Assembly: GCA_002839375.1 (NCBI GenBank)
Contig: PGXY01000007.1
Location: 310,001 to 374,000 of the forward strand
Length of the DNA stretch: 64,000 nt
Source of the DNA: Spirochaetae bacterium HGW-Spirochaetae-1
GTDB lineage: Bacteria; Spirochaetota; UBA4802; UBA5550
Direction: 5' to 3'
Shown here piece after piece: positions 4,883 through 55,773 of the stretch (positions within the stretch are counted from its first letter, which is position 1; every line of letters begins with the position of its first letter). The translations under genes and the position numbers were made by a program. The notes below the pieces were generated by a model. The model searched no databases, was not told the origin of the DNA, and worked only from the letters and a program-made list of their open reading frames with translations.

Positions 4883-5827
4883 CTATAAAAACCGAAGCAG
4901 TTTATCAAAAGAATCCTGGTCTATTTTTTGCATTTTCTTTTTAATATCAGCATATGTTTCGTCCCTCCGTATTTTCAGGACAACGCTTATTGCATCGCCC
5001 TCAAAGAACTCCGGGAACTTTATTTCCAGATCTTGCCCCTTCATGGAATCAAGCAGTACTTCCACATCGGCCCATAAAGACGCATACTCGGGATACCTTA
5101 TCCTATGCAGCGCCTCGAGTATATAATTTTCAGAACCGCGGGGGTCATCAATTAAAGTGGGATTTATCTTTTCCATCCATGCCACAGTACCATCACGCCG
5201 ATAGATATCCTGGATCATTTCAACGGCCTTTTTGAAAACATTCACCCGCAGCTGTACATGGCAAAGCCACTGCGCCATTATACCCTGCGCTTGCTCTGGC
5301 AGCCGTAGAAAATATTTTATTATTTTAAAGGATAAATCACGCGCATCAAAATATTCTCTCACGACCTGTGGAAGCCGGAACACGCCTTGAATATCCGGGG
5401 AGGTGCTGATAAAATCACGGGGAATGCCCAATCCTGCAGTTCCCGTATGAAGGCATTCCGTCATGGAAGCATTAAAATAATCTTTCATCACAAACAATAC
5501 CTTCATTTTCCCCGCAGGGCCCAGTTCATTATGATATGACTTTACTACTGCATTGGCTATGAATTCCTGTAACTCTATCCTATCCGACACATGGGCCTCT
5601 ACACGATCAATGCCGGCAAGAGAGGCGGCCTTCAGACGGTTGAATCCATCAATGATGCGGCATTCACCGCTCCCTGTCTTTAATAATACCGGCGACTGTA
5701 ATATCCCGTACTCCCGAACTGAACGCAGGAGGTCGTCACTGACCGCATTTCTGCTGATCCTGAAATACTCATCGGATACATTAATATCCTTTATCATTAG
5801 GGTCGACAATGATCTTCTGTTATGCAT
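4883..5827 (-). CDS. ParB-like N-terminal domain protein
   Basis: About 314 residues, last gene of the leftward seven-gene group. The N-terminal part carries the ParB/Srx fold: SDDLLRSVREYGILQSPVLL, then CRIIDGFNRLKAA, which corresponds to the ParB GxxRxxA (Box II) motif with F-N-R in place of E-R. The rest is helical and unrecognised; no obvious helix-turn-helix or CTPase GERR motif is seen, so it is probably not a chromosome-partition ParB. The ATG at 5827 has GGAA 7 bases upstream; an in-frame ATG at 5848 is possible. It lies 39 bases from the upstream TPR gene. Function unknown. Confidence 0.7.
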   Translation of the reverse strand: MHNRRSLSTLMIKDINVSDEYFRISRNAVSDDLLRSVREYGILQSPVLLKTGSGECRIIDGFNRLKAASLAGIDRVEAHVSDRIELQEFIANAVVKSYHNELGPAGKMKVLFVMKDYFNASMTECLHTGTAGLGIPRDFISTSPDIQGVFRLPQVVREYFDARDLSFKIIKYFLRLPEQAQGIMAQWLCHVQLRVNVFKKAVEMIQDIYRRDGTVAWMEKINPTLIDDPRGSENYILEALHRIRYPEYASLWADVEVLLDSMKGQDLEIKFPEFFEGDAISVVLKIRRDETYADIKKKMQKIDQDSFDKLLRFL

Positions 5828-5866
5828 AGGGTGTTTCCATTGCAGCATTACCGGAAAATTAGAATA

Positions 5867-7510
5867 TTAGATCAGACCTTCCAGGAGGCTTCCCACCTGA
5901 TCGGGATATATAACGGTTATCTTGGAAAGCCGGTTCAGCGTACCCTCAGCTGCGGGGGTCAGGTTGCTGGTGGTGACAAAAAGCCCCTTCACTGCCTTGG
6001 CGTCATTTATCGCCTGGGCAAAATTCCGAAGCGGTATCTCGCCTACATTTGTTCCCTTCCACCGCCGGACCCAAACAAGAACCTTCTTGCCGTCCTCATT
6101 GGAATGAACCATAAAATCCACACCATCGGCTTCCCTGTAGGTGAGAAGAATCTCATCAACAGTATATCCCAGCTTCTGAATCATTCTGCTTGCAATGATT
6201 CTGAATTTTTCCGTATCGGTTTCGCAGAGTACATCCATCCTTTCCGTATCATCATAGGACATATCATCACGAGAAGCACCCTGTTTTGACGATTTTGTTT
6301 CCGAAACTCTCGCCCTGACGATAATACTTTTAAGGTCAAAACGTTTCCCGCTTTTGAGCCCGCATATATTCCAGATAAAATTCTCCGGGAATGCATCCTT
6401 GATCCAGTCATCTATATAATTCATCACTGAATCATATAACGGCTCTGTTTTTTTTCTCGGATCTACATCCATCTCTTTCCTCAGGAGGGTGGTAAGCTTC
6501 TGTACATCCTTATAATTTCTATCTAACTGATACAACTGGTTCCAATAATCATAGGCCTGCTGCGTTTTTTCAGCTCTTATAGATGCAAAACCCAGGTCAT
6601 ACAGGAGTACTGATACTTCATCGTCATGCTCGGATTTTCCTGCCATTTCCAGCAGCTCTTCAAAATATTTGATCCCATTTTCCGGTTTCCGCGCCTGCAC
6701 ATATAAAAATGCCAGGAGCCGTTTGGCAATAATTATAGCATTCTTATCCTTCGAGTTTTCCGCCACCGCCTTTGCGTAATTTATGGCCGTTGAAAAATCT
6801 TTTTTCCTCTGGAGAGTAAAAGCCATGGAAATATTGCCGATATCGGAAAGAGGTTCAATAATCAGCGCTTCCTTGAAATAGTATTCCGCATCGGTCGTCT
6901 TATGATTTTGATAGCTGGCCATTCCAGCGCCAAAATACATTTCAAAGCTTTTATCCTTTGTGCTTTTTAACAGCCGATCAAAACTCTTATAAGCCAGATC
7001 AAATACTTCCTGCCCCAGGGAAATAAAACCGACCTGGTACTGCGCCTCAATATCGCCGGGATAGGCACGGGCTATTTCATAATAGCAATTAAAGGCCTTT
7101 TCGGTTTCTTCCCGGCTGAGATACGCTTCAGCAAGCTGTCTCAGCACTTCGAATTTATCCACTTCATGACTGAATTTATTGATCTTTATAATCTCTTCGA
7201 AGTGCAAAACTCCCTGGTCTATCATCTTATTGGCGAAATACAGTTCTCCCAGCTTGTAATGAACGACAGAATTGGCAGGATTGCTTTCGAGCATCTTTTT
7301 ATATTCGACAACAGCCTCATCGAACATGTTCTGGTCAATAAAGCCCTGCGCCCTGTTCAAGGGATTCAAACGGGGTGCCAGGTAATAAATGTAATATACT
7401 ATGGCACCCAGAATAATAATTAATGTGACCAAAATGGGAAACAACATTATAGTATCGCTTAGTTTTTTATTTTCCGAACCGGAAATACTGCACAGCTTCT
7501 TAATCAGCAT
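5867..7510 (-). CDS. Membrane-anchored TPR protein with degraded Mrr-type C-terminal domain (paralog 1)
   Basis: About 547 residues. Order: one transmembrane helix at about 22-45 (MLFPILVTLIIILGAIVYYI), TPR repeats over about 55-340, then an Mrr-cat/restriction-endonuclease-like fold at about 437-549. The fold is recognisable from FRIIASRMIQKLGYTVDEI, GVDFMV and KGLFVTTSNLTPAAEGTL. The usual QxK of the PD-(D/E)XK core reads VLVWVRRWKG: the catalytic Lys is Arg and the Gln is Trp. Nuclease activity is therefore doubtful, and the domain may only bind. It is a clear paralog of the gene at 12643-13995. The ATG at 7510 or the TTG at 7516 could be the start; neither has a good ribosome binding site. 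Confidence 0.8.
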   Translation of the reverse strand: MLIKKLCSISGSENKKLSDTIMLFPILVTLIIILGAIVYYIYYLAPRLNPLNRAQGFIDQNMFDEAVVEYKKMLESNPANSVVHYKLGELYFANKMIDQGVLHFEEIIKINKFSHEVDKFEVLRQLAEAYLSREETEKAFNCYYEIARAYPGDIEAQYQVGFISLGQEVFDLAYKSFDRLLKSTKDKSFEMYFGAGMASYQNHKTTDAEYYFKEALIIEPLSDIGNISMAFTLQRKKDFSTAINYAKAVAENSKDKNAIIIAKRLLAFLYVQARKPENGIKYFEELLEMAGKSEHDDEVSVLLYDLGFASIRAEKTQQAYDYWNQLYQLDRNYKDVQKLTTLLRKEMDVDPRKKTEPLYDSVMNYIDDWIKDAFPENFIWNICGLKSGKRFDLKSIIVRARVSETKSSKQGASRDDMSYDDTERMDVLCETDTEKFRIIASRMIQKLGYTVDEILLTYREADGVDFMVHSNEDGKKVLVWVRRWKGTNVGEIPLRNFAQAINDAKAVKGLFVTTSNLTPAAEGTLNRLSKITVIYPDQVGSLLEGLI

Positions 7511-7595
7511 GGGCAAAATATCCGGGAAAGAATATGCCTGCTTATATTTTCGTCAAAAAGTGCGGTGAATTATTACGAAAAAACGAAGAGTAAAC

Positions 7596-9800
7596 TCATT
7601 TTATAAAACGAATTATTGAAGGCCATCCATTAATCAGGAAGGAGTTGTCGTAAAATTTCTTTAAAATGAAATCATCCCCCTCCACTATTTTTGTCTTGAA
7701 GGGCAATGTAATCAGTATTTCCGGGGGAACATATTTCGGCAGTTTATCGAAATGAAATTGAACCTCATTCTGGGTCGTTGCCACCCTGAAGCTGATTCCA
7801 CCAAAACGCGATGGGGCATCTTCAATAATGATATCCTTACCCGGAATAAACCATTCCTCCAGGGGAACGGGGAATATCTCGAGTCGTTCCGGCAGATCAA
7901 TAAAAATAATATCCCTGAGCAGGGAAAAGAGTTCAGCACTTATTATTTTCGAACATCCATCACCCCAGACACCATTCATTGAACCGGGAGACACAAACTC
8001 CGGCAGGCAGAAAGTTTTACCGCCCACTTTAAATATTTTTTTCAGGATATCATAAATACGCTTATCATTCATCCTTAATATATTATGCGCGATAAGAATA
8101 CTGGAAAATATATCAATGCCCAGGGATTTAACGTGGATGGGGATGGACTTATAATATCCGAATATGGTATTGATAAGCTTCTCCAGTTCATTTCTGGAGA
8201 GTGATTCCGTAAGAAAAGGATATGCCGCATAAATATCCGTATAAAAGAAATCGTTGCTGATACTGCTCCCTTCCACGTATTTAGCGCGAACATGTTCAAC
8301 AAAAAGCCCCTGCAGACGCTTCGATTCCTGCAGGAATCTGTTCTCATCGCCAAAAATTCCCATACATCGCGAGATATACGAAAAATAATAAAGTGAACTG
8401 GCAGCCAGAACAAGATCATGATACTGGGGACTTTTGACGAGGTAGGTTTTCAGTGAATTTTCCGAAAGGTCCCTTATATTCTTTATAGGGCCAAAAAAAC
8501 GGAAAACATGCCCGGCCAGATCCTTCACGTATTGATAATTTTTCTGAATATAATCAAGATCCCTGGTATGCATGAAATAATCGGCAAAAATGCCAAGCAG
8601 ATAGCAACAATCGATGGCCCCATTGAATTGTGGTGATTTCTTATTAAAAGAAAATCTTTCTTTTATCTCTTCCATAATTTTAAGGGATTCACGGTAATAT
8701 GCCATGCGGTTAAGTCCCCGGGAAATATAGTACAGGGATCTGCAGTTCATTGCATTCTGCGTATCGCCGTCAGGATAAATATCCCTTTCAATCACACCCA
8801 GCATATTAATTTTTAAAGTGTTAAACCAATCCTGGATGTTCCTGTCAGGGAATTGCAGTACAGCCCCTTCCTTCATTCTCATTTTTATAAAAGATGAAAA
8901 TTCATTTTTCAATACGGCAGGATCACATGGTCCCGGAGAGATACCATCCTTTCCGCTCAAACCGATTCGGAAAACAATTCCCTTCTCATTTTTACTGAGT
9001 TTAAAACCAAGTCCCAGTGTGGCCAGCCCGTTCTCACACTGCGTTGATGTGGAATCTTCACGCAGCGCTACATCCACATCCCCCTTCGCACCGGACCCGG
9101 AAAGTACGAAATCAGGAGAAGTTTGCAATGCTATGGTGCTCCTGCCGTTTATGGTGACCACCCTGCTCGCGCTGTCGTAGGAAACGCTTTCGGCCGTTCC
9201 GAGATTCAGAATATTGTACGGGCGTACAACAATCATAATCGAGGCGTTCTTTGTCTTTTCCTTCAACCTGCACTGAACATCAATGACACTCTCATCGATA
9301 GTACTGCGCGCTCCTATCATCGTAGTAGTAACAGTGAAAAGCCTGTCCTTCCAGGCAATTTTACCCACACCGGTTTCCGTTTCTCTTTCAATAGTAACGG
9401 ATTGATGCCTGTCCTGGGCGCGATAGATATCACCACCGATAACCATCCATATTTCAATGGAGCAGCTACTGTCCGAGGTGCATATCATACCCGAGGGATC
9501 GATCTGCAGTTCTTCACGGGATATGAGATTTGAAAAGGCGACCCATTGATGCAGGTGATTGTTCAGGAGAAGCGGAGGATAAACGGGAACGATATTATTG
9601 CTGTTGACATCTTCAGAGTCTATCCAGGCGGGCCATTTAAATAAAGGGAAACGCTGAAAAAGGGAATAGTTATCTATTCCCTTTTTAATATTCTCAAGCG
9701 ATGGCAGCAGTTTTTCCGTATCTACTTTTTCGTTGTATCCGGCAGCATCAGTCATAAACTGAACAGGTCCATTCACTCTTTTGTTGATTCCAATTTTCAA
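7596..9800 (-). CDS. Six-hairpin-glycosidase-like protein
   Basis: 734 residues without a signal peptide, so cytoplasmic by prediction. The N-terminal ~300 residues look like a beta-sandwich. The middle (about 330-640) looks like an (alpha/alpha)6 barrel of the six-hairpin glycosidase superfamily: PDGDTQNAMNCRSLYYISRG, FNGAIDCCYLLGIFADYFMH and LVLAASSLYYFSYISRCMGI fall at helix-like spacing. A C-terminal beta domain follows. No exact GH family or catalytic acid was assigned. The frame begins with TTG at 9800; the next ATG is at 9755 and neither has a strong ribosome binding site. It sits between the STAS gene and TPR paralog 1, an unusual place for a sugar enzyme. The fold call is by pattern only. 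Confidence 0.6.
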   Translation of the reverse strand: MKIGINKRVNGPVQFMTDAAGYNEKVDTEKLLPSLENIKKGIDNYSLFQRFPLFKWPAWIDSEDVNSNNIVPVYPPLLLNNHLHQWVAFSNLISREELQIDPSGMICTSDSSCSIEIWMVIGGDIYRAQDRHQSVTIERETETGVGKIAWKDRLFTVTTTMIGARSTIDESVIDVQCRLKEKTKNASIMIVVRPYNILNLGTAESVSYDSASRVVTINGRSTIALQTSPDFVLSGSGAKGDVDVALREDSTSTQCENGLATLGLGFKLSKNEKGIVFRIGLSGKDGISPGPCDPAVLKNEFSSFIKMRMKEGAVLQFPDRNIQDWFNTLKINMLGVIERDIYPDGDTQNAMNCRSLYYISRGLNRMAYYRESLKIMEEIKERFSFNKKSPQFNGAIDCCYLLGIFADYFMHTRDLDYIQKNYQYVKDLAGHVFRFFGPIKNIRDLSENSLKTYLVKSPQYHDLVLAASSLYYFSYISRCMGIFGDENRFLQESKRLQGLFVEHVRAKYVEGSSISNDFFYTDIYAAYPFLTESLSRNELEKLINTIFGYYKSIPIHVKSLGIDIFSSILIAHNILRMNDKRIYDILKKIFKVGGKTFCLPEFVSPGSMNGVWGDGCSKIISAELFSLLRDIIFIDLPERLEIFPVPLEEWFIPGKDIIIEDAPSRFGGISFRVATTQNEVQFHFDKLPKYVPPEILITLPFKTKIVEGDDFILKKFYDNSFLINGWPSIIRFIK

Positions 9801-9824: not shown

Positions 9825-10169
9825 CTATTCGTTTTTGAAGGATTGCAGGGCTTCTTCCTCGTTATCATAAATATCAAACATATCCATAAGTTCAACAACT
9901 TCAAAAATCTTCTTTACGGCATTATTCATGTTGGACAGCTTCAATTTACGCTTTGATTCCTTCAGAACTCTCATGGTGGAAACAAATATTCTAAGACCTG
10001 AACTGCTCATATATTCCACATCCTTCAGGTTCAGAAGCAGATGACATGCCGGATCATCCTGAATAATTTTATTTATTTCTTTTTCAATGTCCGCGGAAAG
10101 ATGTACATCTAGTCTACCGGCCAGGTAGATAACCGTTACATTCCCTGCTTTTTTAATATTCAATTCCAT
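9825..10169 (-). CDS. STAS-domain anti-sigma factor antagonist-like protein
   Basis: 114 residues, one complete STAS domain (SpoIIAA/RsbV type). LAGRLDVHLSADIEKEI is the first strand-helix, and LKDVEYMSSSGLRIFVSTM carries the phospho-acceptor Ser region (D-x-x-x-x-S-S-S-G-L). In partner switching such proteins, when unphosphorylated, bind an anti-sigma kinase and free its target. No cognate kinase is next to it. AGGAG lies 6 bases before the ATG. It is the fourth gene of the leftward group and probably gives that group a regulatory input. Confidence 0.88.
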   Translation of the reverse strand: MELNIKKAGNVTVIYLAGRLDVHLSADIEKEINKIIQDDPACHLLLNLKDVEYMSSSGLRIFVSTMRVLKESKRKLKLSNMNNAVKKIFEVVELMDMFDIYDNEEEALQSFKNE

Positions 10170-10264: not shown

Positions 10265-10771
10265 TTATTCAAGTCCCTCTCTGGACTGTTTTTTAGTTAT
10301 AACCAGCCCAAAAACAGTGATTAGTGTGATAGCGATAAAAATAATGCCCAGAATAATAACTATCATATGTCCCTGCTGGCCCAACATAGCGGCACCTGAA
10401 GAAATTGCCTCAGCTTCACTTCTTTTAATTAGCACAACAATGCTCTGTTTGATAAACAAAATCGAAGCCAGAAAAGGAAACAGCAGTCCGTTATAATAAA
10501 TAAGCCCCCTGTATTTGAGCGGATCAAAAAGCGGCAATACCATGGCAACACCGCTGGAAAACAGGAGAGCTGCCGAGGCCCTGGAGATATAATAGAGTGG
10601 ACTCACCAGTTCATGGTCCTTAACAAGATCAAGCCAGTTTTCCGATACGTTTTCAGCAAAAAACTCTATAACTGTCAGTGGTGAAATATAAAACAATGCA
10701 CCCATTATGATATATACCAGGCCTGTTATCAACACAATTACCTGTAAAATATTTGTAGACCTTGATCTCAT
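10265..10771 (-). CDS. Four-helix membrane protein of unknown function
   Basis: 168 residues with four hydrophobic segments at about 10-32, 62-85, 92-112 and 133-160. A loop with charged residues (ENVSENWLDLVKDHEL) lies between the first two. No known domain was recognised. GGGAG stands 9 bases before the ATG. It lies between the pseudo-patatin gene and the STAS gene in the leftward group and could be its membrane partner. Confidence 0.65.
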   Translation of the reverse strand: MRSRSTNILQVIVLITGLVYIIMGALFYISPLTVIEFFAENVSENWLDLVKDHELVSPLYYISRASAALLFSSGVAMVLPLFDPLKYRGLIYYNGLLFPFLASILFIKQSIVVLIKRSEAEAISSGAAMLGQQGHMIVIILGIIFIAITLITVFGLVITKKQSREGLE

Positions 10772-10812: not shown

Positions 10813-12624
10813 TTATTTCGATAAAATTGCCCGCGATAGTTCCGATGATCGTTCCAGCAGGCTCTCAAGCCTGAATTCTTCTTCATCAACCTCTATCACA
10901 TAATTTCCATCGGCAAGGTCACTGTATTTTTCATCATATTGTCCATCTTCCAGAAAATCAATATATTTCTTATAAAATTCGAGGACTTTGCCGCTTCTGT
11001 ACCTGAGGGTGCTCCTGTTATTTATAGAGACAAATGATATCTCATCAACATCGGTTCTGTACAGATCCTCCACCATGGCCTTGTGGAGGGGATACCCTGA
11101 ACTATACATAGTACCGCCAATATTTTTCGATTCAAAAATCGGGTGTATCAGGAACGACGCTTCAAATAGATCCTTTATGTATCCGGTACTGAAAATTCTC
11201 CGGGCATTCTTTTCCGTATCATGCAGAAGCACTGTCGGAACGGTATTGTACATTTCTATCCTGTTTTTACCGCATAAATCAGCGGCAATCCGGGAAATGC
11301 CCCCGTTTTTAAAAATATGTTTTTCGGGAAAAGTGATATCAAGATATCCGTTTACCTTTTCCTCGTCAAAGAACCGGCTTATGTTTTTTATGAATCCTTC
11401 AGGATCGTTGCTGACGACATAGAGTGCCGATACAAGGTAACTAAATGAAGAGGTATACAGCATGTCAAAGCTTTTATCAAATTCATCTAACGTTTTTATA
11501 AAGCCGCTCAGTATAACGGACTCCAGCATATTGGGCTCGAGAACAAGGGCTTTTCGTTTTTTGTTAATGAGCCCGGTAAAAATACCGCAGGCTCCTTTTT
11601 CAGTGATGGTGCGAAGCGTCTTCATTTCTATTGATTCAGTAAAATTAAATTTCTCCAGGATGTATCCCCCGGAGAAATTCCTGATCTCACCCTCATTGTA
11701 TTCATTAGCCACATAATAGACCCGTTGCCCGTCATTGAGAACACTGTCGAATAAGGAGTAAACCTCCTCCCGCTCTTTCTTCTTAATAATCGTGAACAGG
11801 ACGTCCGTATCTTCAAAGGCGCTGTTACGCAGCTCGGTATCAAAATCTGACAGGTCCAGGATTATATATTTATATTCCTTGGACAGATAAAAAAGTATGG
11901 GGGAAATAATTCCTGGATCGACCTTCACCTTTGATCCCGAGGCGATATTAAAAAGAAAAAGATTATCATCGACCTTTTCAATCCGCTCCTTCAGGACCTG
12001 CTCCATTGATGAGCCTTCTTTCTGCTTCTGTGAAAAGGGAGAGGTGATTTTTGCATCAAGATAATCAAAAACGGATTTTCCCGAGTATGACATATCAAGA
12101 ATGATGGTCTTGCCGTGCCTGGAAAGATCGAGTCCCAGGAGTGAGGCAAAAAATGATTTTCCCGATTTTTCATGGGAGCTGTAAATCGTGACAATCCTGC
12201 TCCTCTCGGTAAAATATTTTTTTCCCACATCGGATATTTCCAGCCCGATACGGTTTATTGTCCTGACATATCCCCGCAGCGCTTTATATGAAGTAACAAA
12301 AAACCTGTACAGATCCTCCTCGTTTATAATGAGAAGAGACGCATCGATGACAGCTCGTACCGAACCGTGCTGCCGGTTGTCCGTCAAAGGAATGTTCCCG
12401 AAGAAAGATCCGGGTGACAGGTATACAACATCGCTTCCGGCGATTGCCTCTATTTCGAAAACACCGTTGATGACAATATTAAATGAATTTATTTTTTTCA
12501 GTTCGAATCGCTGGCCTTTTTTAATATGAGATATCCTGGCGACCTTTTGCAGATAAAAAATTTCATCATCGGAGCAATGCCGGAAAAGTGGAACGTTTCT
12601 GAGTAATTTATTTGCGATATCCAT
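10813..12624 (-). CDS. cNMP-like / P-loop / degenerate patatin protein (NTE-like architecture)
   Basis: 603 residues. Residues 1-130 resemble a cyclic-nucleotide-binding beta-roll (VPLFRHCSDDEIFYLQK, then SPGSFFGNI). Residues 143-300 form a MinD/ParA-like P-loop: EKSGKS at 152-157, Walker B YIILDLSD at 253-260. Residues 358-550 follow the patatin pattern of neuropathy-target-esterase homologs: KALVLEPNMLESVILSGFIK replaces the GGGxRG oxyanion segment, and YTSSFSYLVSALY (390-402) replaces GxSxG, keeping Ser393 but losing both glycines. The Asp of the DG(G/A) motif is absent near 507-511. This looks like a catalytically dead relative used for sensing or scaffolding. The alignment is by eye. Confidence 0.65.
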   Translation of the reverse strand: MDIANKLLRNVPLFRHCSDDEIFYLQKVARISHIKKGQRFELKKINSFNIVINGVFEIEAIAGSDVVYLSPGSFFGNIPLTDNRQHGSVRAVIDASLLIINEEDLYRFFVTSYKALRGYVRTINRIGLEISDVGKKYFTERSRIVTIYSSHEKSGKSFFASLLGLDLSRHGKTIILDMSYSGKSVFDYLDAKITSPFSQKQKEGSSMEQVLKERIEKVDDNLFLFNIASGSKVKVDPGIISPILFYLSKEYKYIILDLSDFDTELRNSAFEDTDVLFTIIKKKEREEVYSLFDSVLNDGQRVYYVANEYNEGEIRNFSGGYILEKFNFTESIEMKTLRTITEKGACGIFTGLINKKRKALVLEPNMLESVILSGFIKTLDEFDKSFDMLYTSSFSYLVSALYVVSNDPEGFIKNISRFFDEEKVNGYLDITFPEKHIFKNGGISRIAADLCGKNRIEMYNTVPTVLLHDTEKNARRIFSTGYIKDLFEASFLIHPIFESKNIGGTMYSSGYPLHKAMVEDLYRTDVDEISFVSINNRSTLRYRSGKVLEFYKKYIDFLEDGQYDEKYSDLADGNYVIEVDEEEFRLESLLERSSELSRAILSK

Positions 12625-12642: not shown

Positions 12643-13995
12643 TTATATTTTTTTTAGCATCTCAACCAGGTCCGCTTTAGTCAATGTCTCGATGGGACGA
12701 GTATTAGCGAATTCCAGGGCCTTGGGGGAATATTCACCCGTGGTGATTATCATGATGCGGGTGGCATTACGTGGTTTCATAGTCTGATATAACTTCCGGA
12801 GAACTGAGTCCTGAATGATTTCAGTTGTCCTGATAATGCGTATTATCCTGTTGGATTGCCGGGCGTTTCTCCACTTTCCCTCTATCTCTGTCGCAATCAT
12901 TTCGATTTCCGTATCGCTGATTATATCAACATCGGTGATGGTATATCCCAGTGCCGTAATCATTTTTCTGCACATATGTTCAAACTGTGAAAGTCCGGCG
13001 ATGAGGAAATCCTTTATGCGGTCATCCTGCCGGAATTCTGAAAAACCTTTCAATTTCTCCTGGACATCACGGAAATTCTTGTTCACTTCTACTATCTTTT
13101 CCCAGTTATGTATCGCCGCATGTATATCCCGCATTTTTTCCTGACACTCAGCCAGGAAATAACGAAGATTAAGCTCCGTCTCACTGCCTGACCGGGCGAA
13201 TTTTAATCCCCTTTCAAATTCAGTGGCGGCCTTGGGATACTGCCCCCGCTCGAGGTGACATGATCCCTTGGCGAGAAAGCTCTTCACTTTCAGGTCATCG
13301 CTCTTCTGGGCCGTTTCAAATTCCTTAATAGCCCACTCGTAATCTCCCTGCTGACGAAGCACAAGTCCCAGAAAATAATGAGCCTTGTAATTCGCCGGAT
13401 TAAACTTTATAGTATTGATAAGCATCTGTTTCGCATCGGCATAGGCTCCATTCCTGTAATACGTCTGCCCCAGGAAATAATATGACATCTCGTGCTTGCT
13501 GTTATTGGATATGCTTTTCTTGAAGAAACCGACGGCCTTGTCCAGTTGATTGGAATTAAAAAATATCTGGCCCAACTCGTAATAATGCTCATAATTGGCC
13601 GGATCAATTTTTGTCAGTATAAGGTATTCCTTGCGCGCCTCTTCAATAGCCTTTTTCTCTTTAAACATTCTTCCAAGAGTCGATCGTACATATATTTCAC
13701 TTATCATATCATCATAGCGTCCAAGCTTTAACACCTGCCGGTACTCAACGATGGCATATTGACTATTTCCCTCTTTTGCATAAGCCTCGGCCATGAGGAA
13801 ATGGGCATGGGGATTCCTATCATCTTTTTCAATAATTTCGGTCAGTTTTTTTATAGCCAGCTTGGTCTGTCCGGCCTCGATCATAGTGGCTATTTCATCA
13901 ATTTTTTTGGGGAATACAATGGTGTTCAGGACATAGTAAATTATCAGTCCCAGCACGATGAAAAACATGAAAATTATTGCATAAGTAAAAATCAT
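12643..13995 (-). CDS. Membrane-anchored TPR protein with degraded Mrr-type C-terminal domain (paralog 2)
   Basis: About 450 residues from the ATG at 13995 (AAAAGGA 11 bases upstream); a TTG start at 14034 would add 13 residues. Residue numbers here count from the TTG. One transmembrane helix at 14-36, then TPR repeats (for example MSYYFLGQTYYRNGAYADA) to about 335. The C-terminal domain (350-463) aligns with paralog 1: CRKMITALGYTITDVD and RIMIITTGEYSPKALEFA. The PD-(D/E)XK core is more eroded here, with RIIRIIRTTE where QxK belongs. It is the first gene of the leftward group, directly behind its promoter. Confidence 0.8.
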   Translation of the reverse strand: MIFTYAIIFMFFIVLGLIIYYVLNTIVFPKKIDEIATMIEAGQTKLAIKKLTEIIEKDDRNPHAHFLMAEAYAKEGNSQYAIVEYRQVLKLGRYDDMISEIYVRSTLGRMFKEKKAIEEARKEYLILTKIDPANYEHYYELGQIFFNSNQLDKAVGFFKKSISNNSKHEMSYYFLGQTYYRNGAYADAKQMLINTIKFNPANYKAHYFLGLVLRQQGDYEWAIKEFETAQKSDDLKVKSFLAKGSCHLERGQYPKAATEFERGLKFARSGSETELNLRYFLAECQEKMRDIHAAIHNWEKIVEVNKNFRDVQEKLKGFSEFRQDDRIKDFLIAGLSQFEHMCRKMITALGYTITDVDIISDTEIEMIATEIEGKWRNARQSNRIIRIIRTTEIIQDSVLRKLYQTMKPRNATRIMIITTGEYSPKALEFANTRPIETLTKADLVEMLKKI

Positions 13996-14083
13996 ATCGA
14001 TTGAAATCCTTTTCTCCCGATTCCCCGCTTGCAAGGGAATAACAATCCCGATTTAACGGTTTTTCATATATCCTGATTTAATC

Positions 14084-14271: not shown

Positions 14272-14344
<73 letters not shown>

Positions 14345-14356
14345 CATTAACCCGCC

Positions 14357-26538: not shown

Positions 26539-28692
26539 TTATTCCTGGTTCGCATCAATGATGATCTGGGAATCGTAGGAACCATTATTGCCGAAAACCA
26601 GCATGGGGATGCCCGACGGGAAGGGCAACAGGGGACCGTAATTGAACAGATAATATTCCTTTGCCGACGCATCATCACCGTCATGGAAAAAATCGTAGCT
26701 GTCGTCATCGAGAATGAAATAGCTGCTGGTATTGCCGATCCTGTCCGGGAGGGTTACTTCTGTTACAGCCCAGTTGTTGTCGCTTTCGGGCAGTACAATC
26801 TCCCCTTTGAGTCCTCTGCCCAGTTTATAATACTTTTCCGTCAGCCAAATCCTGGCAAAATAATACCCATTCTCATTGTCGTAGCGGAGCATGATATCGG
26901 CTTCCCGGGGATCGCTTCTTTGTCCGGCGGGGATGACCTCGCGGATAACCGCCCTGCCGGCCGATTTCCCGGAATCCCCGAAGGCATTGTCATCATCGGC
27001 CCTGAAAACCAGTTTCAAAAAAGGATCTGACTCCTGTGATATTTCCTCCAGGCTCAGCAGCTGCGGACCGTCTATATCGGGACTCTCTGTTTTAACATCG
27101 GCTATGTCCGCCACGGGAATCCTGGTCTGTCTCCGGAAAACGTATCCCCTGCGGCCTTTGAGCTCTTCGCGATAGTAATAGGTATCTTTCCAGGATTTAT
27201 CGTCCCTGTTGGAAAAAGTAAAGGAGCCCCTCTCCCCTGCCCCGGTGGTGAAAGACGCCGAGACCTGGGCCAGCTCCCAGACCCCCGATTCATGATAGTT
27301 CTTCAGGCGCGCCGTACCGGTATAATAACCGTTCCCGGCGGGATTCAGGGGACAGAGCAATTCCTGGCCGTACTGCCTGCTTGCCCGGGCGCTCACCGAT
27401 ACCTTTCCCGGAGCAAAAATACGGGCCTGCATGGCAGTGATATCAATATCCCTCGTTTTGACCTTAACCGACACCGTTATGGAATCGGTCCAGCCGTCGC
27501 CGTCATCATCACCGGCATGGGCAGCCGCTTTATCGAGCAAAGCCCTGACCGCTCCCTCGTCCCATTCATGGGCGTCATTGAACACAACACGGGCCGTGGC
27601 CACGGTTCCGTCAAAGGATAGAATCTCCGGATCACCGGAAAACTCATCACCGGTCATGAAAACATTCCCGTTTATCCAGTGACTGTCGCCGCTGCCGGGA
27701 TTGCGAATCAGGCCATGCTGGGGACGATAGACAATGAAGGAATAATCTGTCGAAGGATCAAGGCCGGGAACGGTGACTTTCCCCGATGCAGCTGTAAGAA
27801 CCGTGGCGGAAACCCTCTTCCAGGCATGGGCATTGGAAACATTGTAAACCATGACCACCAGGGGATGCACCCTGTTTATCCGCTTCTTTCCTTTATAGTG
27901 GACGGACACCTCGAGACTGCCCGACTGGGACGAATCGCCGGCAAAATCCCCTTCGAGATTGCCAATTTCAATGAGCCCCTTCAGTTCTTCTTCGGAAATC
28001 TCCCGGAACCTGCCGGAAAGGGATTCAACACGGGAAAGCTCATAAAATTCCCAGTACCGGGTCTCATGGCGGAAGGCGCCCAGGTATCCCGTGACATCGG
28101 CCAGAAAGAGGTATCCCTTCAGCCATTCCATTACGGCAAGCTGTCCCGTTTCCGCATCATAGTCATTATAGGATATGCCCCTGCCGATTTTGTACAGGGT
28201 GTCGTCCCATCCCAGCCTGACGTAGATGTTTATTTTCTCATCGCCGAAATGAAAAAAATAGCGGACATCCACATCATGATAATTTTTGACCTGTTCCGGA
28301 GAGAAAAAATCGCGGTAGTACGAATTGCTTTGCCAGAGTGAATACAGGCCGTGTGCATTGATATCCCCTTCTAAGTTAAGAGACGCTGCCGCGACCGGCG
28401 CAGCGCTCACAACGGGCTTTTTTTTGACGGCAGGCGCCGGTTCGGTTCCCGTATTGAGCCGGTCTCTCCTGATGGCCTCCTCGTCGATGGTGATGAGCAT
28501 GTTTTCCCTGCTGAAATATTCATCGCCGTCCATATCATCGCCGCGTTCCACCGATTCAGCGGCACCGCTGTTCCGGGCCCTTCCGTCGCTGCCGTCACCG
28601 GAACATCCACCGATTGCCGTCATGACCATGAATAACAGCACTATACATGTCGGGGAAGATAATAATTTTTTCATATTTGACGCACGACGCAT
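26539..28692 (-). CDS. Large lipoprotein of unknown function
   Basis: About 717 residues. The signal peptide ends with the lipobox AIGGC (Cys30 from the chosen start). A Gly/Asp/Glu-rich linker follows, then beta-rich segments with Tyr/Trp-rich strands; an Asp-rich GDDDGDGWTD loop could bind calcium. I recognise no catalytic family. GAGG lies 11 bases before the ATG at 28692; the frame also has a TTG at 28728 and an ATG at 28674. Membrane-anchored on the outside by prediction. Confidence 0.65.
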   Translation of the reverse strand: MRRASNMKKLLSSPTCIVLLFMVMTAIGGCSGDGSDGRARNSGAAESVERGDDMDGDEYFSRENMLITIDEEAIRRDRLNTGTEPAPAVKKKPVVSAAPVAAASLNLEGDINAHGLYSLWQSNSYYRDFFSPEQVKNYHDVDVRYFFHFGDEKINIYVRLGWDDTLYKIGRGISYNDYDAETGQLAVMEWLKGYLFLADVTGYLGAFRHETRYWEFYELSRVESLSGRFREISEEELKGLIEIGNLEGDFAGDSSQSGSLEVSVHYKGKKRINRVHPLVVMVYNVSNAHAWKRVSATVLTAASGKVTVPGLDPSTDYSFIVYRPQHGLIRNPGSGDSHWINGNVFMTGDEFSGDPEILSFDGTVATARVVFNDAHEWDEGAVRALLDKAAAHAGDDDGDGWTDSITVSVKVKTRDIDITAMQARIFAPGKVSVSARASRQYGQELLCPLNPAGNGYYTGTARLKNYHESGVWELAQVSASFTTGAGERGSFTFSNRDDKSWKDTYYYREELKGRRGYVFRRQTRIPVADIADVKTESPDIDGPQLLSLEEISQESDPFLKLVFRADDDNAFGDSGKSAGRAVIREVIPAGQRSDPREADIMLRYDNENGYYFARIWLTEKYYKLGRGLKGEIVLPESDNNWAVTEVTLPDRIGNTSSYFILDDDSYDFFHDGDDASAKEYYLFNYGPLLPFPSGIPMLVFGNNGSYDSQIIIDANQE

Positions 28693-28810
28693 TTCCCGTA
28701 GAACCTCTATACTGCGTTGATCCAGCAATCCGCTGCAAAATCCATGAAATGAATTTTTCAGGAAACCGCCATATTAATCAACATCTTTTTATTTTTGCCC
28801 ATACACGCTA

Positions 28811-39345: not shown

Positions 39346-40644
39346 CTACGCTGCCGGCCCCTGTTTCGCCAGGACAGCCAGTATGGAAATATCCTCTCTC
39401 CGTTCAAGACCGCCGGAGAAATCCACGGAAAAACGTACCAGGCCGTCGATGATGCTCTCGGAAGAATCGTAATTTCCCTGCAGTTCTTCCATGATCCGCT
39501 TCAGTCCCAGGACCTGCCCCGCCCTGTTCCTGATATTCAGGATACCGTCGGTGACAACAACAAAAACATCACCGGGCCGCAGCAGGAGCCTTACCCTCTT
39601 GATCTCCTTTTCCTCGTCGCCGATGCTCATGACTCCCAGGCGGAGATACCGGGCTATTCCGTCGCGCACCAGGATGGGATAGGTCACACCGGCATTGGAG
39701 AAAAGCATTTCCCCGCTCTCCCTGTCTATGACGCCAAAAAACAGGGACATGCGCTTAACAAAATCCACATCGCGGGCCGCAGTGTTGCGGATATACTGGA
39801 GAAGGGCAGCCGGATCATGGCCCTTGAGACCCGAAAGCATCTTCAGCGCCCCATTGGCCGTGGAGGCCCGGAGCCCGCCGGGGATGCCCTTTTCATGGAT
39901 GTCGCCCATGGCCATGGCCATTTTATCATCATCAAGCCTGTACAGGCCGTGAAACTCACCGCCCACCTCCCGGGCCGAAAGGGACCGCGCGGCGATCTCA
40001 AAATTGCCGTGAGTCACATTGAAACTGGGAACCAGCGTCTCCTGGATTGAACGGGCCGATACCAGCTCGCCCTTGATGCGCTCCTCTTCCAGGGCGCTCT
40101 GAAAAAATATAGCGTTCTGTACTGCCAGGGCCGCCTGGTCGGAGAAAATCTTGAAAAGGTTCTGGTCTTCGACGGTGAACTGGGGCCTGTTCACGGGATT
40201 GATGGCCTGGATGACCCCCAGGAGCTTTCCCTTAAAAAGAAGGGGCGAACACAGGATAGCCCGGGTCACAAAACCCGTGCTTTTATCGAAATTGGGATCA
40301 AAACGCTCATCACTGTAGACATCATTCACGATAAGGGGCTTGCGGTTGCTGGCAACCCATCCGGCGATGCCCTGCCCCATACGGACGCGGTATTTTTCCA
40401 TTAACTCGTCACCGGCACTGCCCAGGGCCACCTTGAAAACGAGGTCGCCCGAATCCTCTTCGAGAAGCAGCAGGGTACTGGTTTCGGTCTCCATTATATC
40501 CTTGATGATTTCCATGATGATGGTGAGGAGCTTCCCGATATCCAGTGTCGAGTTGATGATGCTGTTTATGTCCACGAGCTTGCTCAGGTTGAGAAGCTGG
40601 CGCTCCAGGTACGCGAGGTTATGTTTGGTTTCCTGATCTTCCAT
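39346..40644 (-). CDS. GAF-domain PP2C (SpoIIE-type) phosphatase
   Basis: About 432 residues. N-terminal GAF domain (about 25-175), then a PP2C/SpoIIE domain with GDIHEKGIPGGLRAS, VVTDGILN and REDISILAV. The usual GGDFxD metal motif reads GGEFHGL: Asp to Glu, and the second Asp is lost. Such proteins dephosphorylate STAS antagonists; STAS proteins at 9825 and 33804 are possible partners. The start at 40644 has AGGAAACC just upstream; the earlier in-frame start has none. Confidence 0.82.
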   Translation of the reverse strand: MEDQETKHNLAYLERQLLNLSKLVDINSIINSTLDIGKLLTIIMEIIKDIMETETSTLLLLEEDSGDLVFKVALGSAGDELMEKYRVRMGQGIAGWVASNRKPLIVNDVYSDERFDPNFDKSTGFVTRAILCSPLLFKGKLLGVIQAINPVNRPQFTVEDQNLFKIFSDQAALAVQNAIFFQSALEEERIKGELVSARSIQETLVPSFNVTHGNFEIAARSLSAREVGGEFHGLYRLDDDKMAMAMGDIHEKGIPGGLRASTANGALKMLSGLKGHDPAALLQYIRNTAARDVDFVKRMSLFFGVIDRESGEMLFSNAGVTYPILVRDGIARYLRLGVMSIGDEEKEIKRVRLLLRPGDVFVVVTDGILNIRNRAGQVLGLKRIMEELQGNYDSSESIIDGLVRFSVDFSGGLERREDISILAVLAKQGPAA

Positions 40645-40905
40645 TGGTTTCCTGTCTGTATTAATGGCTGAAATAGAACTGTATTGCCATGCCCTCCTGC
40701 TCCGCAGCGGGAAAAGCAACTGTATATTAAATGATGACTCTTATGTGATGTAAAGTAAAAAATGTATATTTTTATTAATATTCAGGATATGGGCGCACAC
40801 CTGTTCATATACTGATTATCGCCACCCCGACGCGAGGTTTATTTACCTGCTTGTTCCGGAAGATTCTCAGAGGAAGAGCACGGAGGAAGGATGTAATTTT
40901 ACCTG

Positions 40906-52419: not shown

Positions 52420-53547
52420 ATGATACCCTTCAACAAACCCTGTGTGACCGGAAAGGAAGAACAATACCTGAAAAAAGTCATTGAAAACGGCATCTTCGCA
52501 GGCGACAACGAATTCACTAAAAAATGCCATGCATGGTTCGACAATGTATTCCCCGGATCACGAAGCCTCATGACTCCCTCGGCCACCCATGCCCTGGACA
52601 TGTCGTGCATCCTCATCGACCTGAGGCCCGGCGACGAGGTGATAGTTCCCTCCTTCACCTTCCCGGCCACGGCCACCTGCGCCACCATGCGCGGCGCAAC
52701 ACCGGTCTTTGTAGACATACGGCCCGATACTTTAAACATAAACGAAAATCTCATTGAAGAGGCTATAACGGGCCGCACCAGGGCCATCCTGCCGGTGCAC
52801 TACGCGGGAGTTGGCTGTGAGATGGAGGCCATCATGGACATTGCCCGTCGCCACAATCTGCCGATCATCGAGGACTCGGCCCAGGCGATCCTCTGTTCAT
52901 ACAAGGGCAAACCCCTGGGAACCTTTGGGCTCTTCGGCTGCTTCAGCTTTCATGAGACCAAGAACCTTCAGTGCGGCGAAGGGGGCGCCATGATCATTAA
53001 TGATCCCGCATACTTTGAACGGGCCGAAATTCTCAGGGAAAAGGGAACAAACCGCTCTAAGTTCTGGCGCGGCGAGATAGACAAGTATTCCTGGGTGGAT
53101 ACGGGATCATCCTATATCCCTTCAGAACTCACCTCGGCCTTTTTATACGCGCAGCTTGAACAGGCTGAAACGATCATGAAGGACCGGTTGAAAAGCTGGG
53201 ACCTGTATTATAAAGGGCTTACTCCCCTTGAAGATAAGGGACACATCGAACTGCCTCGTATCCCGGAACACTGCAAGCACAACGGTCATATTTTTTATAT
53301 TAAGGTAAGAGATCTTAAAGAGCGAGACGCGATTATTAAATTTCTCCGTGAAAAGGGCATATACAGTGTGTTTCACTATGTGCCTCTGCACAGCTCCCAG
53401 GCCGGTCGTAAATATGGGCGCATGCACGGCGAGGACTGCTACACCACGAAGGAAAGCGACCGGCTTGTGCGGCTGCCCATGTATTATCAATTAACAAATG
53501 AAGAAATACATAAAGTCATTGATAATGTGCAATCATTTTTCGCTTAA
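52420..53547 (+). CDS. rffA: dTDP-4-amino-4,6-dideoxygalactose transaminase (RffA/WecE)
   Basis: 375 residues, DegT/DnrJ/EryC1 fold. IPFNKPCVTGKEEQYL and SFHETKN (PLP Lys) match RffA/WecE. Turns dTDP-4-keto-6-deoxyglucose into dTDP-Fuc4N. GGAG lies 5 bases before the ATG. It overlaps the convergent GT-C gene by 15 bases. Confidence 0.92.
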   Translation: MIPFNKPCVTGKEEQYLKKVIENGIFAGDNEFTKKCHAWFDNVFPGSRSLMTPSATHALDMSCILIDLRPGDEVIVPSFTFPATATCATMRGATPVFVDIRPDTLNINENLIEEAITGRTRAILPVHYAGVGCEMEAIMDIARRHNLPIIEDSAQAILCSYKGKPLGTFGLFGCFSFHETKNLQCGEGGAMIINDPAYFERAEILREKGTNRSKFWRGEIDKYSWVDTGSSYIPSELTSAFLYAQLEQAETIMKDRLKSWDLYYKGLTPLEDKGHIELPRIPEHCKHNGHIFYIKVRDLKERDAIIKFLREKGIYSVFHYVPLHSSQAGRKYGRMHGEDCYTTKESDRLVRLPMYYQLTNEEIHKVIDNVQSFFA

Positions 53548-55773
53548 CTTTTTAAAAGGATCACCGATAACAGCCGGTTCGGGCGGATATATAAGGGGCG
53601 GTTTGCCGGTATATGTTCCCTTCAAAACACCCTGCACTATCATTCGCGCCCCGGCTGCGCTCCTTACGCCTTCAGTTTTCTCCATAAAAAATTCAAGAGC
53701 CTTATACCATTTTGTGTTTTTGATTGAATTAACATCTCCTGTCTTCATCTCCGACAAAGGAGCCGGGGAAAATACGCTGTTGCCGGCATTAAAAATTGAA
53801 CCAGGCAACGATGCGCCGGTTCCGGGCTCTGTTTCTGTATTTTTCCAAATCCAATAGTTGATAATGCCATAGTTATACGCACCGTACAGGTCATCGGATT
53901 CCTTCTCCAGGGCCTTATTGACATATTCAAGCGCTTTGCGGTCAATATTTCCAGTCCATGATTCAACGGCTTTATGGTAATACATAGATATAAGCAGATA
54001 TTTATCCACAAAAACCGTATCGGATACGTTTTCAAATATCCCGATTGCGTTGGAGTAATCACGGTTATAATAGGCCACAACACCTTTTATATAGTCGCCC
54101 ATCTTCTGGACGACTTCCACCTGATCCGCCAGTCCAAACCGCCGACTCATACTGGTAAATATTATTTGCACACCCTCCCAGTCCCGAATGCTCAGAGCAA
54201 AAGCGCATGCCTCTGCCGCGCTATGAAGGTTCTTTATGTTTCCCAATGATGATCCCCGGACAATACTGTTTTGAGGCAGCGGCACTTCCTTCTTTACGAA
54301 TACCGGCCCTGAAGGGCCGTAGTAGGCCAGTTTCCAATCCGCAGATTCGTAAAAATAGGTAATGAGTACCTGATTCATATATTGAAGATTAATTACATCA
54401 AAGGGATACTTTTTAACAAAGGATTCAATGCTTTTACCGCTATCGAAATCTAAAAATTCCCTGTACATATCCTTAAAAGGAAAATAACGCGGATCGATCA
54501 TTATTTTAACATCCGGCCCCAGCCTCCAGAGCATATAACCGCCGTTATTATATACATTGCCTATTTTATAAGCTGAATAATTCTGTTTTATAAATTCCGT
54601 TTCATCCATGGAGTTAATATAGCCATTTCCCAGTCCCAGCCACTGTTCCCTCGGAGGGGTAAACAGGGCATTGTAAACGGTCCAGCGGACCTGATCGAGA
54701 CTGATCAGCACTACGATGATGATGTAAACCCACACGACAGCCTTGCGTTTAATTTTCGCAATCAAAGCGTCATCGGCCAGCATATACAGGGTATTGAATG
54801 CAAAGACAGGAGCCCAGAAAAAAGTGGTCCGTAAAAACTTGAGATACAGCGCGATATAAAACAAGTTTGTTAAAATAATAGCAAAATCATACTTTTTAGT
54901 TTTCTTAACGGCAATAAAAGCATACAATGTCACCAAAAGCGAGATGATAATATAAAGTGTTGGGTTTGTAATTCCAAAAGTGGCGCTGTATGCGGATATT
55001 CTCTCAAAATCCCCGGATACCGCATCATACTGAAACGTCATTTGGAATAACTGTACAGGATATTTCCACCCATAAGGCGTTATAAATAAAGCTATTCCCG
55101 AGAGAATGAACGCTATTAAAAGATGTTTCCGTACCTCTGCTTCGAGGGCCTCTGTTGGATTAAACCGAGAATTTATAATATCTCCGAGAAGGACAAGCCC
55201 GAGGAAAGGAAAACCGAATATAAAAGCGCCATGAGTGTTGACCCACAGGAGCATGATTACGGGAAACAGGTATACAGCTTTATAATATTTCTTCCCCTCA
55301 ACCCTGATAAACCACCACAGAAAGACCGTTATAAACATGAATAAAAAAGAAATTATCTCCGGCTTAATCAATGTTGCTCCAATTCCTGCAATGAGCAGAG
55401 AAACAAGCCCGGTCAATCCTGAAAGGGGATGAAAAGCTACCCCTGTTTTGATGGCTGCCCAGACAAATAAAAACAGGGAAAGCAGCGGGATTATATAGCG
55501 CAACGCATACAGGGCATTGACCCCCCCCCATTGATATAATTTATAGAAACATATCTCGGGCAGCCATGCACAATAAATAATATCGTTTGTCGCCTTTGTC
55601 CATGTGTATATGGTATGATCCGGTATCAATGTTTTATTTTCGAGAAGATATTTGCCATAGGACATGTGCCACCATGTATCGCCATCACCAATGGGGCGTG
55701 TGTACATGAAAAAAATAACGATAACGCAGAGTAGTATTGAAAAAACAAACACGCCCTTCTTAAGCAGTTCCAT
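53533..55773 (-). CDS. Polytopic GT-C-like membrane protein with TPR-like tail
   Basis: 746 residues. Ten or so transmembrane helices in residues 1-370, a loop GDGDTWWHMSYGKYLLEN after helix 1 (the DTWWH motif of a widespread uncharacterised family), NVYNNGGYMLWRLGPDVKIM after the membrane part, then helical repeats near 520-690. Likely lipid-linked glycan transfer at the outer face; unproven. Confidence 0.75.
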   Translation of the reverse strand: MELLKKGVFVFSILLCVIVIFFMYTRPIGDGDTWWHMSYGKYLLENKTLIPDHTIYTWTKATNDIIYCAWLPEICFYKLYQWGGVNALYALRYIIPLLSLFLFVWAAIKTGVAFHPLSGLTGLVSLLIAGIGATLIKPEIISFLFMFITVFLWWFIRVEGKKYYKAVYLFPVIMLLWVNTHGAFIFGFPFLGLVLLGDIINSRFNPTEALEAEVRKHLLIAFILSGIALFITPYGWKYPVQLFQMTFQYDAVSGDFERISAYSATFGITNPTLYIIISLLVTLYAFIAVKKTKKYDFAIILTNLFYIALYLKFLRTTFFWAPVFAFNTLYMLADDALIAKIKRKAVVWVYIIIVVLISLDQVRWTVYNALFTPPREQWLGLGNGYINSMDETEFIKQNYSAYKIGNVYNNGGYMLWRLGPDVKIMIDPRYFPFKDMYREFLDFDSGKSIESFVKKYPFDVINLQYMNQVLITYFYESADWKLAYYGPSGPVFVKKEVPLPQNSIVRGSSLGNIKNLHSAAEACAFALSIRDWEGVQIIFTSMSRRFGLADQVEVVQKMGDYIKGVVAYYNRDYSNAIGIFENVSDTVFVDKYLLISMYYHKAVESWTGNIDRKALEYVNKALEKESDDLYGAYNYGIINYWIWKNTETEPGTGASLPGSIFNAGNSVFSPAPLSEMKTGDVNSIKNTKWYKALEFFMEKTEGVRSAAGARMIVQGVLKGTYTGKPPLIYPPEPAVIGDPFKKLSEK

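Follow-up and report, generated by a model that had tools for sequence, protein, structure and literature searches.

NTEx, the protein analysed here, has the domain order of neuropathy target esterase (NTE)-type phospholipases. We found that its patatin-like lipase domain has lost the catalytic site in every orthologue examined, while its P-loop domain has kept its nucleotide-site residues almost throughout, and that the gene sits in a conserved operon with a STAS protein. That NTEx is a dead phospholipase is well supported. Our best explanation is that it acts as a noncatalytic adaptor, probably a nucleotide-binding one, in a STAS partner-switch module, a reading to which we give about an even chance. 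The gene occupies 10813..12624 on the minus strand of the window (the whole 64,000-nucleotide stretch of Spirochaetae bacterium HGW-Spirochaetae-1 that was analysed), and its frame of 603 codons, with an ATG start and read from 12624 to 10813, encodes 603 amino acids; unless a strand is given, all features below are also on the minus strand. NTEx is built from parts of known kinds in an NTE-type architecture. The open-access literature searched contained no description of the family itself or of a dead patatin combined with a kept Walker A motif in a conserved spirochaete STAS operon.

NTEx is present as a single copy in the window's genome. Among 59 related genomes searched, 44 had a match, mostly as a full-length open frame, and NTEx is therefore not a chance frame. 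The matches extend to all sampled families of the same order, and none was found in the 13 genomes outside the order. An earlier sequence-only reading had marked out this frame without giving its strand, and its reality is borne out by this conservation in relatives. Named records of the relatives are nearly all uncultured Spirochaetes/Spirochaetota metagenome assemblies. A scan of genome contigs with the single NTEx protein as the query returned no relatives; one with a closer NTEx subset returned 14 loci, namely, 12 spirochaete relatives (one of them titled only "uncultured bacterium") and 2 weak P-loop matches from other bacteria. The degraded active sites described below might suggest a decaying gene or an artefact. 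However, the full-length frames in most of the 44 genomes, the fixed synteny and the invariant residues refute this, and we attach next to no probability to it. Since full-length frames and gene order have long been conserved, NTEx must be a protein in use.

NTE is a lipid-cutting enzyme, and the NTE type includes PNPLA6/7 and Swiss cheese; the bacterial representatives combine a cyclic-nucleotide (cNMP)-binding domain, an NTE_Ploop domain (PF24179) and a patatin domain. Searched with Pfam as a single sequence, NTEx showed its cNMP-binding-like domain (PF00027; residues 1 to 125, 12250..12624) barely above the cut-off (27.7 versus 27.5 bits) and Patatin (E 0.076) and ParA (E 0.3) as traces only. 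Because these matches were weak, family profiles were used. Over an alignment of 39 orthologues (A1), the cNMP domain was matched in 36, Patatin in 20 (best E 1.5e-8), and ParA, CbiA and AAA_31 in 12 to 15 each. When A1 was compared by hhalign with the profile of canonical NTE-type proteins (A3), a single collinear match ran through all three domains (493 columns, P 99.5%, E 3.9e-22); the patatin parts alone gave P 97.7% and E 1.7e-12, and the P-loop parts alone E 4.4e-5. The P-loop domain (residues 140 to 330, 11635..12207) also drew matches in the PDB to a PF-32 ParA-type protein (E 9.5e-12) and to many ParA, MinD and BY-kinase chains. Almost the whole AlphaFold model has high confidence (mean pLDDT 90.2, pTM 0.91). 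Against the PDB, Foldseek ranked the patatin PlpD first (5fya; E 6.6e-10, TM 0.72 by target length), and most of the next matches were cNMP-binding domains. The C-terminal domain (residues 355 to 540, 11005..11562) therefore superposes on a solved patatin, and the N-terminal domain has the cNMP-binding fold as well as the Pfam match. The NTE-type domain order proposed by the sequence-only reading thus extends to collinearity over the whole length, and the HMM-HMM comparison and structure prediction that it had suggested for the C-terminal region both led to patatins.

The catalytic site of this patatin fold is no longer present. In the profile alignment to canonical NTE-type proteins (residue numbers of locus L055), EPNMLES (residues 363 to 369, 11518..11538) stands in place of the glycine-rich oxyanion loop SGGGARG (469 to 475), TSSFS (391 to 395, 11440..11454) in place of the nucleophile elbow GASIG (497 to 501), and Ser509 (11098..11100) in place of the catalytic Asp613. 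The replacement of the oxyanion glycines, the GxSxG glycines and the catalytic Asp, noticed earlier from the letters alone, thereby receives its alignment. The same reading had held that Ser393 (11446-11448) remains, and this residue, which pairs with the nucleophile Ser499, is indeed present in the window's protein. However, it is no conserved remnant: the position is Ser in 22 orthologues, Gly in 11, Ala in 4, Cys in 1 and Phe in 1, so that the serine is missing from 17 of 39, and a maximum-likelihood tree (made by a quick search with the scored columns masked and long branches flagged) requires no fewer than six switches between Ser and other residues. At position 509, 34 orthologues have Ser, 4 have Ala, 1 has Asn and none has Asp. 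No orthologue has the Ser and the Asp of the dyad (GxSxG and DG[GA]) together, and realignment recovered none. In a first alignment the catalytic Asp fell at residue 508 (Asp in 1 of 39) before a domain-only alignment moved it to 509; the choice between the two does not affect the conclusion. Because the Asp is lost in every orthologue, the Ser drifts and the oxyanion loop is gone, phospholipase activity of the known kind would be very unlikely, and by these residues NTEx does not belong among the NTE-type phospholipases.

One could argue instead that NTEx is still an enzyme whose catalysis has moved, for example, to the S479-T480-G481 loop (11182..11190) acting with E457 or R455 (R455-I-E457, 11254..11262) or to Ser393 paired with another acid. 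Within residues 340 to 603, a reactive or charged side chain is strongly conserved at six columns, namely, 392, R455, E457, 479, 480 and R523. Position 479 is Ser or Thr in all 39 orthologues, position 480 is Ser, Thr or Cys in 38 (Ser or Thr, 100% and 97%, respectively), G481 is invariant, and R455 and E457 are each found in 39 of 39; Ser393, as noted, persists in more than half. Against this, E457 aligns with E561, which is invariant in active NTE-type proteins and is probably structural, Ser393 has been lost repeatedly along with the oxyanion glycines, and the dyad position never carries an Asp. The only Ser/Thr/Cys columns of the patatin region with at least 88% conservation are 392 and 479-480, and the nucleophile position is not among them. 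None of the six strongly conserved columns restores the known dyad, and we regard relocated catalysis as improbable.

The canonical NTE-type proteins of the same phylum, collected through the Pfam NTE_Ploop family (L049-L060; 12 of 198 genomes), present the opposite picture. They share with NTEx the order of cNMP, P-loop and patatin domains and the collinear profile, but they keep GxSxG and DG[GA] at the expected places, whereas NTEx has neither the Ser-Asp dyad nor the oxyanion glycines. Conversely, the Walker A motif (GxxxxGK[ST]) is present in NTEx and in none of these 12 proteins. Within the phylum, therefore, the two lines have degenerated at opposite sites. By eye, most of the canonical relatives also have two cNMP-like domains, in contrast to the single one in NTEx, and NTE_Ploop itself found nothing at E <= 1 in the window's genome. 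PlpD resembles NTEx in the fold of the C-terminal domain but differs in catalytic residues and domain context.

In the P-loop domain, the Walker A segment reads SHEKSGKS (residues 150 to 157, 12154..12177, with GKS at 155 to 157), and among the orthologues G155 is kept in 39 of 39, K156 in 32 and S/T157 in 39. Asp177, the Walker A' or switch Asp (12094..12096), and the Walker B Asp257 (11854..11856) are each present in all 39, Q300 is likewise invariant (39/39), and N307 is found in 38. GK[ST], both Asp residues and the fold are thus held in common with MinD/ParA proteins and BY-kinases. Unlike these, NTEx has its P-loop fused between cNMP-like and patatin-like domains and lacks the signature Lys of the deviant Walker A motif (KGGxGK[ST]); position 151, the site of that Lys, is His in the window's protein and Lys in only 3 of 39 orthologues. 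The sequence-only reading of a MinD-like P-loop that keeps GKS but not the signature Lys was therefore sound, and the change that it had placed in the "His150-region" falls at 151. NTEx could still be a ParA/MinD-like positioning ATPase, partnered by the operon's ParB_N-like protein and with the patatin and cNMP parts as add-ons, as might be expected from the ParA/MinD profile matches and from the ParB_N-like gene at the end of the conserved cluster. However, the rarity of the signature Lys, the loss of K156 in 7 orthologues over at least five changes on the tree and the complete loss of the site in distant homologues all weigh against a positioning ATPase, which we consider distinctly unlikely. 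The cNMP-binding-like domain, for its part, does not have the phosphate-binding cassette with its conserved Glu and Arg (Glu77 in 7 of 39; Arg84 in 20 of 39, with shifted spacing), which, on the strength of these pocket residues, argues against cyclic-nucleotide sensing. Of the "pseudoenzyme sensor" proposed earlier, then, the dead patatin stands, whereas the sensor was a conjecture that fits poorly with a cNMP pocket lacking the Glu/Arg pair and with a P-loop site lost in distant members.

The strongest pointer to what NTEx does is its conserved operon, which the sequence-only reading did not pick up. The cluster that contains NTEx reads, all on one strand, TPRMrr1, NTEx, membrane protein, STAS, GH94-like, TPRMrr2 and ParB_N-like, with gaps in that order of 18, 41, 95, 24, 79 and 18 bases. 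TPRMrr1 (12643..14034), placed by Pfam and synteny, is a TPR protein (2e-26) with an N-terminal hydrophobic segment and a degenerate Mrr-fold domain (Mrr_cat, 1.8e-12) in which the usual QxK nuclease motif was not found. Adjoining NTEx is a conserved hydrophobic protein of 168 amino acids (10265..10771) that matches no Pfam family and that, to judge from its sequence, is probably a membrane protein. The STAS protein (9825..10169; PF01740, 4.2e-21) is of the anti-sigma-factor-antagonist type, and its orthologues share 68 to 83% identity and keep the motif YMSSSGLR. The 734-residue product of the next gene (7596..9800) gave almost no Pfam signal and no clear family, and its fold was therefore predicted (AlphaFold pLDDT 86); it resembles the cellobiose-phosphorylase fold of GH94 phosphorylases (Foldseek 8hob, E 2.9e-15). 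TPRMrr2 (5867..7516; Mrr_cat 7.9e-15, NA-iREase1 3.4e-6) has WxR where Mrr nucleases have QxK, with the Arg (R484) in 21 of 21 orthologues and the GVD motif kept; the two TPR proteins are paralogues, both ending in Mrr-fold domains without QxK. The last conserved gene (4883..5848) is assigned by synteny and by a ParB_N match in 15 of 21 orthologues (best 1.7e-7). A tRNA-Ala (GGC) gene at 14272-14345 on the plus strand, the only tRNA of the window, separates GreA from the cluster, to which it lies on the opposite strand.

The same arrangement recurs across the order to which Spirochaetae bacterium HGW-Spirochaetae-1 belongs, at the majority of fetched loci whose flanks were long enough. The GH94-like gene is absent from the three deepest members (G026, G021 and G030), and at L081 just the first two cluster genes were seen. 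In the nearest orthologue (L003/L065), NTEx directly follows GreA with no TPRMrr1 between them, and TPRMrr1 was not found in the L065 genome (a 1.5-Mb assembly, 72% complete); the TPR partner is therefore not obligatory. The nearby GH94-like and membrane genes suggest an envelope process, and together with the kept patatin fold and pocket-forming segments they would suit a lipid sensor in which a lipid or acyl chain occupies the dead patatin pocket and is reported through the N-terminal domains. Yet the patatin part is the less conserved one (mean pairwise identity among orthologues, 34% versus 39% for the other two domains), and we hold a lipid sensor to be possible but rather unlikely.

With STAS/SpoIIE partner-switching systems, the operon has the STAS gene in common; it differs from them in having no kinase or phosphatase. 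In the known partner switch, SpoIIE dephosphorylates a conserved serine of the STAS protein (PMC8256260). The window's genome encodes many SpoIIE-type and HATPase proteins at dispersed sites outside the operon, and a partner switch could therefore act in trans. A 457-residue frame in the window (39346-40719) matches a partner-switch protein in the GAF and SpoIIE-phosphatase parts (genome C7:349367-350587). Two long frames (26539-28728, 729 amino acids; 53533-55773, 746 amino acids) had no Pfam match at 1e-5. Four loci of another spirochaete family (L156, L157, L162 and L163) have TPRMrr1, then a long protein, then STAS, with a GH94-like gene behind STAS in three of the four. None has an NTE-like protein between TPRMrr1 and STAS, and in the three loci scanned the long protein is a GAF-SpoIIE-phosphatase-HATPase protein. 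NTEx therefore occupies the place that a switch regulator has in this other family.

Outside the order, the NTEx profile found proteins of 560 to 630 amino acids in three other families, and in six genomes TPRMrr1 directly precedes the homologue. These distant members have neither GK[ST] nor GxSxG at the aligned positions, and Walker A, D177 and Walker B are absent altogether; given this absence and the scattered loss of K156 within the order, nucleotide binding is not essential family-wide. What they do keep (G76, P79, S184, N226 and P433 invariant; G54, G182, G481 and R523 nearly so) are not known catalytic residues. This suggests that the family as a whole shares a structural or adaptor role, to which nucleotide binding may be an addition made in this order.

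We therefore return to NTEx as an adaptor. It would descend from, or share an ancestor with, the NTE-type cNMP-P-loop-patatin proteins, and its patatin domain may be a pseudo-phospholipase kept for its surface. The P-loop most likely still binds nucleotide in this lineage, presumably without a MinD-type hydrolysis cycle. From the gene order, we infer that NTEx probably docks on TPRMrr1 at the membrane and that it may couple the STAS switch protein, encoded two genes downstream, to a nucleotide or lipid state. A more tentative reading, which we hold at well below even chances, is that this is an undescribed spirochaete module, a STAS-switched envelope machine whose structural parts include degenerate enzymes (the pseudo-NTE, the two Mrr-fold proteins that lack the nuclease motif and perhaps a pseudo-glycosidase of GH94 type), and that the NTE type has split into forms with a live patatin and a dead P-loop and forms with the reverse.

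To our knowledge, the role of the regulatory half of NTE-type proteins is poorly understood. The survival of this half, together with the operon, next to a dead lipase half in NTEx suggests that the regulatory scaffold is useful in its own right, and NTEx offers a system for working out its role. Moreover, TPRMrr1-type C-terminal domains occur in 211 of 296 sampled spirochaete genomes, so that the finding also concerns a protein family that spans the phylum and has apparently not been studied.
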